DNA of 64,000 nt from Thermopolyspora flexuosa (GTDB taxonomy: Bacteria > Actinomycetota > Actinomycetes > Streptosporangiales > Streptosporangiaceae), in NCBI RefSeq assembly GCF_006716785.1, contig NZ_VFPQ01000001.1, positions 4,340,001 to 4,404,000 on the forward strand, in the 5' to 3' direction. Below are positions 61,415-64,000 of the stretch, one piece after another (position 1 is the first letter of the stretch; every line of letters starts with the position of its first letter). The notes under the pieces were generated by a model. That model saw only the letters and a list, made by a program, of their open reading frames with translations, did not search any database and was not told the DNA's origin. The translations under genes were made by a program, and so were the position numbers.

Positions 61415-61726
61415 TTACTTCTCGATGATGGCGAGCACGTCCCGGGCGGAGAGGACCAGGTACTCCTCGCCGCCGTACTTGACCTCGGTGCCGCCGTACT
61501 TGCTGTACAGGACGATGTCGCCCTCCTTGACGTCGAGCGGGATCCGCTTCTCGCCGTCCTCGTCCCAGTTGCCGGGGCCCACCGCGAGCACCTTGCCCTC
61601 CTGGGGCTTCTCCTTGGCCGTGTCAGGAATGACCAGCCCGGAGGCGGTCGTCTGCTCGGCCTCGAGCGGCTGGACCACGATGCGGTCACCGAGCGGCTTA
61701 ACCGGAACCTTGGTGGCGGTCGTCAC
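61415..61726 (-). CDS. groES: Co-chaperonin GroES
   Basis: 103 residues. GroES fold with the mobile loop ([21 protein letters not shown]) and the [18 protein letters not shown] motif. It caps GroEL. GTG 61726 is preceded by GGGGAGG. The CIRCE operator and a TTGACT-17-TACTGT promoter lie just upstream, so the operon is HrcA-controlled and heat-inducible. Confidence 0.97.
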
Positions 61727-61816
61727 GATCGGACCTCCCCTTCAGAATTCGTTGCTCAGCTGAAGAGGCGACCAGCGGCCTGCCGTCGCGGGTGTCAGAC
61801 CTGCCTCGTCGCGTGG

Positions 61817-61843
61817 TTGGCACTCTCAGGCCGAGAGTGCCAA
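61817..61843. promoter_or_regulatory. CIRCE operator (HrcA site)
   Basis: TTGGCACTC-N9-GAGTGCCAA, a perfect 9-bp inverted repeat matching CIRCE (TTAGCACTC-N9-GAGTGCTAA) with one symmetrical substitution. It covers the transcription start of groES. Confidence 0.95.
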
Positions 61844-61848
61844 CAGGA

Positions 61849-62084: not shown

Positions 62085-62110
62085 GGGGGCGGCCGTCGCG
62101 GGCCGCCCCC
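62085..62110 (-). terminator. Hairpin after secreted-peptide gene 1
   Basis: A perfect 10-bp stem (62085-62094 with 62101-62110). First of two stacked terminators before groES. Confidence 0.6.
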
Positions 62111-62136: not shown

Positions 62137-62451
62137 TCAGCGCCGGCCGCGGAACCGGTAGCCCGGCTTGGCGTCGGTCTCGTGCGAGTCCGTGTGCTGG
62201 TTGTTGTTGATCTGGTGGGTGACGTGGCAGTCCACGTTCACGTTGCGGTGGCTGAGGAGGTCGGAGAGACCGAGGCTGCCGATGAGGACGCCGAGGGCGC
62301 TCTCCGACCGGTTGCTGGTGTTGCCGGTGTCGACGATCACACAGTCGACGTTCTTGGCGAGGTCCTTGGGCTCATTGGCGTGGGCCGGGCTCGCCAGTCC
62401 CATGCCTGCGGCGGCGGCGACCGCGGTGAATGCCGCGAACTTCTTCAGCAT
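62137..62451 (-). CDS. Small secreted two-Cys peptide 1
   Basis: 104 residues. Signal peptide MLKKFAAFTAVAAAAGMGL to AHAN; the mature part has two Cys 45-50 apart, TGNTSNRSESALG, a hydrophobic GVLIGSLGLSDLLS, and RNVNVDC then QINNN. It is paralogous to the gene at 62902. The two-Cys, hydrophobic-centre design recalls chaplins, but the chaplin consensus is absent; a surface or aerial-hypha role is an inference. The leader is almost identical to that of the paralogue. Confidence 0.75.
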   Translation of the reverse strand: MLKKFAAFTAVAAAAGMGLASPAHANEPKDLAKNVDCVIVDTGNTSNRSESALGVLIGSLGLSDLLSHRNVNVDCHVTHQINNNQHTDSHETDAKPGYRFRGRR

Positions 62452-62474
62452 CGAAACTCCCGATCGATTTCGGT

Positions 62475-62488
62475 TGATCCTCGGATCA
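62475..62488 (-). promoter_or_regulatory. Conserved leader element, copy 1
   Basis: TGATCC-GA-GGATCA on the minus strand, 24 nt before the start codon. The surrounding about 38 nt is nearly identical to the leader of the paralogue at 63174. Confidence 0.5.
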
Positions 62489-62526
62489 GCCCGGCCGTCA
62501 TTTTCGTCCGGTCGAGCCGACAACAA

Positions 62527-62555
62527 TTAGAGCGAGGATCGCACGAAATAGCAAG
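62527..62555 (-). promoter_or_regulatory. Promoter of secreted-peptide gene 1
   Basis: Minus-strand TTGCTA (62550-62555), 17 nt, TCTAAT (62527-62532). Confidence 0.5.
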
Positions 62556-62649
62556 CACGACAAGTAAGTTCCGGTTAAAGCAATCGGGCGTCCGCGACCA
62601 GCATTTGCCAGGAAACCGGCCACAACACCCGATTTGCGCCAGAAAAAGA

Positions 62650-62669
62650 GGGCGGTAGGTGTACCGCCC
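62650..62669. terminator. Bidirectional intrinsic terminator
   Basis: GGGCGGTA (62650-62657) pairs with TACCGCCC (62662-62669), with CTTTT on one side and AAAAAG on the other, giving T-runs in both directions. Confidence 0.7.
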
Positions 62670-62846
62670 ACTTTTCCTGGGTTTCGGGACACCGTTCCGG
62701 TGCCCGCCGGGAAAACATCCTCCGCCGGCCGGGTGAACCGTTCTCCGGCCCACCGTGGCCCGCGGTCCACGGGCACGATCGGCGACCGCGCCCCGCCCGG
62801 GGCTCGGAAGCCCGCGGAGCCGGGCACCGGGTACGGCCTCCCGGCA

Positions 62847-62875
62847 AGGGGACGACGCGCGAGACGTCGTCCCCT
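62847..62875 (-). terminator. Terminator of secreted-peptide gene 2
   Basis: A perfect 11-bp stem (62847-62857 with 62865-62875), 27 bp after the stop. Confidence 0.65.
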
Positions 62876-62901
62876 CGTCACGGTCGACCTGTCAAACCCG
62901 C

Positions 62902-63174
62902 TCAGCGGCCGGTCTTGTGCGAGTCGACGTGGTGGTTGTTGTTGATCTGCTTGTCGACATCGCAGTTGACGTCGACGTTGCGGTTGCTGAGGAGGTCGTA
63001 GAGACCGAGCGCACCGAGAATGCCGAGGCCGTTCGCCGTGTGGTGGTGCGTGTTGCCGGTGTTGGTGAGCACACAGGCGACGTCGGCGGGACCGTTGGCG
63101 TACGCCGGAGTGGCGAGCCCGAGGCCGGCGGCCGCGGCGACCGTGGCGCTAGCCACTACAAGCTTCTTAAGCAT
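62902..63174 (-). CDS. Small secreted two-Cys peptide 2
   Basis: 90 residues. Signal peptide MLKKLVVASATVAAAAGL to AYAN, then ACVLTNTGNT, hydrophobic GLGILGALGLYDLLS, RNVDVNC, QINNN and a His-rich end. Same family as the gene at 62137. ATG 63174 has GGAG upstream (GGAGATCTAA). The His content (including HHH and NNNHH) might bind metal. Its codons near the start (CTT, GTA, AGC) are less GC-biased than neighbours. Confidence 0.75.
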   Translation of the reverse strand: MLKKLVVASATVAAAAGLGLATPAYANGPADVACVLTNTGNTHHHTANGLGILGALGLYDLLSNRNVDVNCDVDKQINNNHHVDSHKTGR

Positions 63175-63199
63175 TTAGATCTCCTGATCGATCTTGGAT

Positions 63200-63213
63200 T
63201 GATCCTCAGATCA
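63200..63213 (-). promoter_or_regulatory. Conserved leader element, copy 2
   Basis: TGATCTGAGGATCA on the minus strand, at nearly the same distance from the start as copy 1; the inverted repeat is 5 bp here. Confidence 0.5.
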
Positions 63214-63248
63214 GCTCTGCCCTCTTTCCTGGCGGCGAGCCGTCAATA

Positions 63249-63278
63249 AGTAGACCGAGCAAGCAGTCCACGGAACAA
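63249..63278 (-). promoter_or_regulatory. Possible promoter of secreted-peptide gene 2
   Basis: Minus-strand TTGTTC (63273-63278), 18 nt, TCTACT (63249-63254). The rest of the gap to 63748 shows no gene. Confidence 0.35.
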
Positions 63279-63748
63279 GGCCCGCCGGGTAAGAGCCTGA
63301 CAAAAGGGCTCTGCGCGAATCGCCAGCAAAGAACGAGCCGCTTTCCCGAAATTTCGAGTTTGCGGCAGAAAATCCCGCAAACGCGACAGACCTGACGATC
63401 CAGTGATTTTTCCTGGCTCGTCGGTTTGTTTCCTCCGCGCCTCGCGCCGAATGGCCCGCCGTCGTGCACCACATGGCCGTGGCCGGGCGCGGCGGGCGCA
63501 TGGGCGCGGCGACGCGGCTCGAAGCGGCCGGGACGCGTCCGGCCGCCCGGCCACACGGACCCGGCGAACCGGACGCTGACACAGGCCACCCGAGCGCCGC
63601 TCATCCCGCCGGGAGGCCGGGCGAGACGAGCGTCCTCAGGACGCGTCCGCGGACCACGTGCCCCACGCGTTCCGCGCAGGCCGCGAACGGGACCGCCCTT
63701 CCCCGGCGCGCTCCCGCCTGCCGCGGCGGACACGCCCTCGCCGACGCG

Positions 63749-64000
63749 CTACGCGGCGCTGCTCACCGAGGCGTCGCTCGCCGACGCGTCGGCGCCGCTC
63801 TCCGCCGGCTGCGCGTTCGTCGCCCCCGCTGCGCTCTCCGCGGCGGCGTCCTCCTTGGCCTCCTCGGCCTTGGCCGGCTCGGCCGCGTCCCCGGTGGTCT
63901 CCGCCTTCGCCGGCTCAGCCGCCGGGGCGGCATCGGTCGTGACCGGCTCGGCGTCCGCCGCGGTGGTCTCGGCCTTGGCCGGCTCCGCCGTCTCCTTCGC
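63749..64000 (-). CDS. 3' end of Ala/Glu/Pro/Lys-rich protein (partial)
   Basis: An open frame enters from the window edge and ends at TAG 63749-63751 (83 residues visible). The sequence is low complexity with repeated AEPAKAE units and TT-A/D-A spacers, ending in Ser/Asp/Ala. Such tails are found on ribosome-associated, wall or nucleoid proteins. The function must come from the missing N-terminal part. The third-position GC bias supports coding. Confidence 0.6.
   Translation of the reverse strand, partial: AKETAEPAKAETTAADAEPVTTDAAPAAEPAKAETTGDAAEPAKAEEAKEDAAAESAAGATNAQPAESGADASASDASVSSAA

Follow-up and report, generated by a model that had tools for sequence, protein, structure and literature searches.

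One end of the 64,000-nucleotide stretch of Thermopolyspora flexuosa DNA analysed here (the window) carries two small, similar genes beside groES, and the locus raises the question of what their products are, in what setting they occur elsewhere and whether they could form part of a coat on the cell surface. Peptide gene 1 (62137-62451, reverse strand) encodes 104 residues with a signal-like start, a Cys, a hydrophobic core, a second Cys, QINNN and a basic tail. The ORF finder offers an upstream TTG start that would give 129 residues; we prefer the ATG because GGGAG precedes it and family members start there. Peptide gene 2 (62902-63174, reverse strand) encodes 90 residues. The two peptides are 62% identical in a two-row alignment and share MLKK at the N-terminus, a hydrophobic stretch, an AxA motif and a two-Cys mature part. 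Both contain the order Cys, TGNT, hydrophobic core, DLLS.RNV, Cys, QINNN that a first-pass annotation of this DNA had described. Of a third gene, only the C-terminal part lies in the window (63749-64000, reverse strand); it extends to 64435, past the window end, and encodes 228 residues with a signal-like start, two Cys and a long tail rich in Ala, Glu, Lys and Thr. On the other side, groES (61415-61726, reverse strand) is the fixed neighbour of the peptide genes. Upstream of groES lies a perfect 12-bp inverted repeat, GTTGGCACTCTC-N5-GAGAGTGCCAAC (61816-61844), which we take to resemble the CIRCE heat-shock operator.

The pair had been called a new family, and the searches agree in leaving it unannotated: Pfam and NCBIfam gave nothing above cut-off for the two window peptides or for 21 members of the wider set described below. 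The lowest weak match, NF008665 (0.0017; 18.3 bits against a cut-off of 149), was judged unrelated. Among PDB sequences no match to peptide 1, searched alone, fell below E 1.4, and an AlphaFold model (pLDDT 39.7) was discarded.

Distribution and chromosomal setting

A pattern scan of GTDB genome contigs with peptide 2 found a single relative, a compost metagenome-assembled actinobacterium that gives the same two proteins as a second genome of the window's genus (G001) and is counted with it as one genome. G001 carries the pair, its peptides keeping only Cys, the LGL core, D(L/I)LS.R, Cys, QINNN and DSH, without TGNT and RNV. A two-row profile matched 5 of 100 relatives. A 16-row profile built from three of these, G010, G013 and G029, was then run on 297 family genomes. 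At E ≤ 0.001 it found 90, which fall into two clearly separate groups: eight genomes reach 6.5e-33 or better, and 82 do not get beyond 4.7e-8. Five of the eight, namely G103, G107, G137, G159 and G217, are absent from the profile. The profile search in relatives that had been proposed as a check on the family thus confines strong matches to eight array genomes. The same profile, applied to class-level relatives (296 genomes), gave 12 matches; the 4.7e-8 of the window's own genome was not surpassed by any of them, and none of the eight array genomes is among the matches listed.

From the eight genomes we fetched arrays with 38 members, 4-7 per genome, and G103 holds one further copy on another contig. 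All 42 members checked, the four of the window's genus included, combine an M(L/F)(K/R)(K/R/Q) start, an AxA motif and exactly two Cys. A signal-peptide-like start, assigned by motif and not by a signal-peptide predictor, is likewise present in 42 of 42 copies and agrees with the secretion proposed in the first-pass annotation. Since nine other genomes carry the set, it is more than a chance occurrence, and the comparisons support a so far unannotated peptide family in part of one actinobacterial family.

The whole-protein match between window pair and arrays (4.7e-8) includes the signal part. We compared mature-part profiles, with signal parts removed and 20 column shuffles per pair, against small reference sets. 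The window's genus scored 15.2 against the arrays with a shuffled maximum of 16.4, the second Cys and the tail being in register; as the mature parts did not beat the shuffles, we base the kinship of window pair and arrays on the signal part, the locus and the leader. The 82 weak genomes, two of which belong to the window's genus, were not counted as members, and the weak loci that we read (L038-L058, L082 and L085) held signal-part matches or other peptide types. Among the latter are 33 copies of tandem QNLQ..PVQLCN...SPQTTGDC.NGP peptides, for which we know of no family name. They resemble the array peptides as tandem exported-type proteins of 80-100 residues with two Cys and a similar start, whereas their genomes have no match to the leader model described below; compared with the mature parts of arrays and window genus, they did not rise above shuffles.

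Seven of the eight arrays sit, as does the window locus, between groES and a gene whose CCGIGGD motif we read as that of a methyltransferase. On the methyltransferase side tsaD comes next in six of seven fetched stretches and at the window locus; the G001 contig ends before a placement between groES and the methyltransferase gene can be judged. In all seven arrays at groES the far end is occupied by a large partner protein, which has two Cys, begins like a signal peptide and carries repeats of the ESFNKDSFN kind. We searched 297 genomes with a profile of the N-terminal 80-90 residues of this protein, and eight match, seven of them by construction, as they supplied the profile; because the other 290 genomes gave one weak match (1.4e-4), no strong partner without an array was found. 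The two genomes of the window's genus have no match to an ESFNKDSFN-type partner, and there the third gene, with a different low-complexity tail, occupies the partner's place. G103 encodes, at another site, a second partner-like protein (L135, G103:C25:39173-39439) with ESFNK repeats and a stretch rich in Ala, Glu and Thr that is reminiscent of the third-gene tail. Elsewhere, a 90-residue peptide between groES and the array (L027:5634-5906), with two Cys, an FNDTFNDS end and no array leader, resembles a very short partner protein.

The eighth array, in G217 (L063), is a moved or copied one: its six copies have the same leader among unrelated neighbour genes, and its 19-kb stretch contains no groES, methyltransferase or tsaD motif and no partner match. 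The methyltransferase motif lies about 1.0 kb from groES in G217 and about 0.2-0.7 kb from it in five more of 20 genomes; in the other 14 the simple motif found no methyltransferase within 1.5 kb of groES, and array absence there is read from the 16-row profile alone. The displaced array and the short intervals elsewhere show that the locus is one that is gained, lost or moved.

Promoter, leader and transcript

Upstream of the array genes the layout is TTTCTTTAC, GCTTGCT, about 17 nt, GGTCTACT, a hairpin, GATCGATCGGGAG and ATG. The putative promoter, the first hairpin and GATCGATCGGGAG are shared between the window's genus and the other genera. The promoter and leader of gene 1 (62452-62557, reverse strand) comprise TTGCTA (62549-62554), 17 nt, TCTAAT (62526-62531), a 5′ hairpin and GATCGATCGGGAG, and those of gene 2 (63175-63280, reverse strand) TCTACT (63249-63254), a 5′ hairpin and GATCGATCAGGAG. 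A sigma-70 consensus scan found no promoter, so that the −35 and −10 labels rest on conservation. A second promoter layout, in which TTTCTTTAC lies closer by about 12 nt, near one turn of DNA, is seen in some copies, chiefly those adjoining the partner gene and those of G013 at the shortest distance from that gene.

We built a sequence-only promoter-leader model (R1) from 31 leaders, none of them from the window's genus; partner genes, the outliers L026_1, L027_1, L062_1, L063_1 and L063_3 and three unextracted G217 copies were also omitted. On the whole T. flexuosa genome R1 matches two places at E ≤ 1, exactly upstream of the two window peptide genes (gene 2, 4.5e-8; gene 1, 3.6e-6), and other weak matches (E 0.14 and above) fell in other genomes. 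A local scan of 12 kb (L008) gave gene 2 at 1.1e-10, gene 1 at 7.6e-9 and the third gene at 6.3e-5, with the next match at 0.29. Across 341 family genomes, scanned with stricter filters at which weak matches are lost, ten match at E ≤ 0.001, namely the eight array genomes that supplied the leaders and the two of the window's genus, and 42 of the 42 matches listed sit at peptide genes. The match before the stray G103 copy is weak (0.28), and the upstream sequence differs in the six partner genes first compared. That a model built without the window's genus recovers both genes, and the third gene too, bears out the first-pass proposal of common control, and we regard control through a shared promoter-leader as supported at the level of sequence. 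The pair itself was rightly seen as two genes; as a description of the unit it falls short, since the third gene also has the leader and other genera have arrays of 4-7 with a partner gene.

We folded 40 leaders singly (L027_1, the partner-gene leaders and the same three G217 copies were left out). The promoter is followed by six bases, mostly GGCUCG, five or more of which open a helix in the best fold of 35 of the 40 leaders, where shuffles expect 11.9, and the arms of this leader hairpin co-vary with their partners (GGCUCG, GGCCCG, AGCCCA, GGUCCU). Each of the 40 is more stable than its shuffles are on average (mean z −1.63), a count over related and not independent leaders, and single-leader z-scores are modest (−0.07 to −3.76). 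RNAalifold predicted no pair on a MAFFT alignment of 36 leaders, probably because loop lengths are unequal; the common hairpin emerged from the leaders folded singly. Rfam gave only matches under gathering scores, the best of which (PrrB_RsmZ, 29 bits against 44) was judged to be chance.

The two window leaders had been described as almost the same and as sharing a TGATCC-type inverted repeat. They are similar, at 77% identity over 78 aligned positions, which is short of near-identity. The repeat is present in both, as the palindrome TGATCCGAGGATCA in leader 1 (62475-62488) and the near-palindrome TGATCTGAGGATCA in leader 2 (63200-63213), and with up to two mismatches it occurs at these two places of the window only (three hits counting both strands, against 0.53 expected); among aligned leaders it is confined to the window's genus and not common to other genera. 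In the RNA fold of leader 1 the first half of the repeat pairs into the first hairpin; since that half is taken up in this way, the repeat may be a DNA site rather than an RNA element.

Perfect stem-loops of 10 bp (62085-62110, reverse strand) and 11 bp (62847-62875, reverse strand) lie 3′ of gene 1 and gene 2, respectively. Neither is followed by a T run, and a terminator scan flagged neither. A bidirectional terminator-like stem-loop stands between gene 2 and the gene 1 promoter (62650-62669; L008 2651-2670); it is weak evidence, as the region has four such sites where shuffles have 1.9 (s.d. 1.2). We infer single-gene transcripts, and the small genes look like separate transcription units, each under its own promoter copy.

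The first-pass annotation saw in the likeness of the two leaders a recent duplication, which the distances argue against. Between the two species the leader of a given gene shows 92.3 or 95.0% identity, compared with 75-77% between paralogues, and whole-gene synonymous distances are 0.23 and 0.29 between species and 0.50 and 0.52 between paralogues; the pair thus predates the species split, with the caveat that the core may be homogenised. The informative nucleotide sites number 39, of which 29 favour grouping by gene and 10 grouping by species, the latter all in codons 39-88. The gene 2 mature part is 51.6% identical to its counterpart in the other species, while the mature parts of the two own peptides are 58.7% identical to each other. 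The position of these sites and the likeness of the mature parts make it likely that gene conversion has acted on the core within each species, and the apparent recency may in part be its product.

A candidate surface coat and its alternatives

We put at about even the probability that these are co-regulated surface-coat peptides, similar to chaplins and rodlins in design only, with the two window peptides and the third gene as one genus's version of a coat-peptide locus. The surfactant or coat that the first-pass annotation had suggested is to that extent a fair guess at a possible role. This reading builds on (i) a signal-like start, two Cys and a hydrophobic core in many separately controlled small genes, (ii) arrays of 4-7 copies, a leader confined to peptide genes and a repeat-rich partner and (iii) a parallel in design with the chaplins and rodlins of Streptomyces. 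Each of these alike units carries the same promoter and 5′ hairpin in a copy of its own, so that several could be fired together at a high level. The peptides would be exported via their signal peptides and each closed by one disulphide between its two Cys, and the hydrophobic core would drive assembly on the cell surface. The repeat-rich partner would probably serve as scaffold or spacer; in the window's genus its place would fall to the third gene, whose tail is rich in Ala and Glu. The best 11-residue mean hydropathy is 1.8-2.2 in the four peptides of the window's genus and averages 2.0 in the 38 array members. Against a coat, the mature peptides have on the whole a hydrophilic composition (GRAVY −0.48 to −0.83 in the window's genus, mean −0.14 in the arrays), which makes them less surfactant-like than a classic surfactant would lead one to expect.

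Between the two species the mature parts share 63 and 52% identity, with dN/dS of 1.01 and 1.19 (small counts); the stretch past the first Cys gives 0.92 and 1.79, the signal part 1.08 (gene 1) and 0.07 (gene 2), and the dS of GroES is 0.05. By these ratios, which conversion would disturb if it acts, the mature peptides of the window's genus show what may be weak constraint or diversification, either of which fits. Values near 1, with leaders still 92-95% identical, also count against the coat in that they would suit exported antimicrobial or competition peptides, a set of variants fired together and diversifying fast between species. We nevertheless think such a weapon set improbable: no immunity, transport or maturation gene was seen by eye among the array ORFs, the repeat-rich partner suits a structure better, and in another genus clearly diverged pairs of small peptides have a dN/dS of 0.32-0.53, that is, purifying selection.

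In the literature covered (PMC4255298, PMC5314377, PMC4125116), chaplins have an aerial-surface role in Streptomyces, and chaplins and rodlins are small surface proteins under joint control of sigma-BldN. Like chaplins, the peptides described here are small and exported-type, with two Cys, a hydrophobic core and several copies per genome; unlike them, they have a Cys spacing of about 27 residues in most array members and a wider one in the window pair. With the rodlins RdlA and RdlB of Streptomyces they share small size, an exported-type start, adjacent paired copies and, in the two rodlins compared, two Cys, and they differ in a mature part about half as long, a leader of their own and a repeat-rich partner. 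They could also be true chaplins or rodlins that have diverged past sequence detection, which we judge unlikely in spite of several likenesses (size class, a pair of Cys, a hydrophobic core, a signal peptide and tandem arrangement), a VCGN common to arrays and chaplins in the best local match and the very low-scoring rodlin hits that Chater and Chandra (PMC4255298) describe from a few other actinomycetes. The first-pass annotation had noted that the chaplin consensus is lacking, and indeed the chaplin model PF03777 (ChpA-C) matches neither window peptide at E ≤ 10 and 0 of 21 members at E ≤ 1. Mature-part profiles scored below shuffled maxima against four chaplin domains (arrays 20.2 versus 21.9; window genus 7.4 versus 14.6) and, in a weak test, against two rodlins from one genome (arrays 9.9 versus 18.4; window genus 11.2 versus 15.6). 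The T. flexuosa genome has eight chaplin-domain matches, the six listed sharing one 664-residue frame outside the window (G000:C1:4998255-4999448).

Envelope-stress peptides tied to the adjacent groES-groEL heat-shock genes are the least probable of the explanations, for although groES adjoins seven arrays and the locus of the window's genus, the peptide genes have their own putative promoter and stem-loops after them, the G217 array keeps the same leader away from groES, and groES does without peptide genes in six of 20 genomes checked, where the methyltransferase motif is only about 0.2-1.0 kb away.

A further point against the surface coat is that these genomes have chaplin-type domains elsewhere, to which it would be an addition. 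A more specific and more tentative form of the coat reading is that part of this actinobacterial family has a second, independently evolved aerial-surface system in which fast-evolving two-Cys monomers, expressed from many copies of one private promoter-leader, assemble on an Asn/Ser-rich repeat scaffold, and in which, in the window's genus, each unit is conserved most strongly in its leader, ahead of the protein. None of the titles and abstract openings listed in searches of the chaplin, rodlin and sporangial-envelope literature describes this peptide locus. Obvious rodlins are reported in streptomycetes only (PMC4255298), so that surface building in other spore-forming actinomycetes is less covered. 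The locus is a compact candidate here, having a leader that, across 341 genomes, occurs at peptide genes only and, at the arrays, one partner gene. It also provides a conserved non-coding leader beside a drifting or diversifying product.
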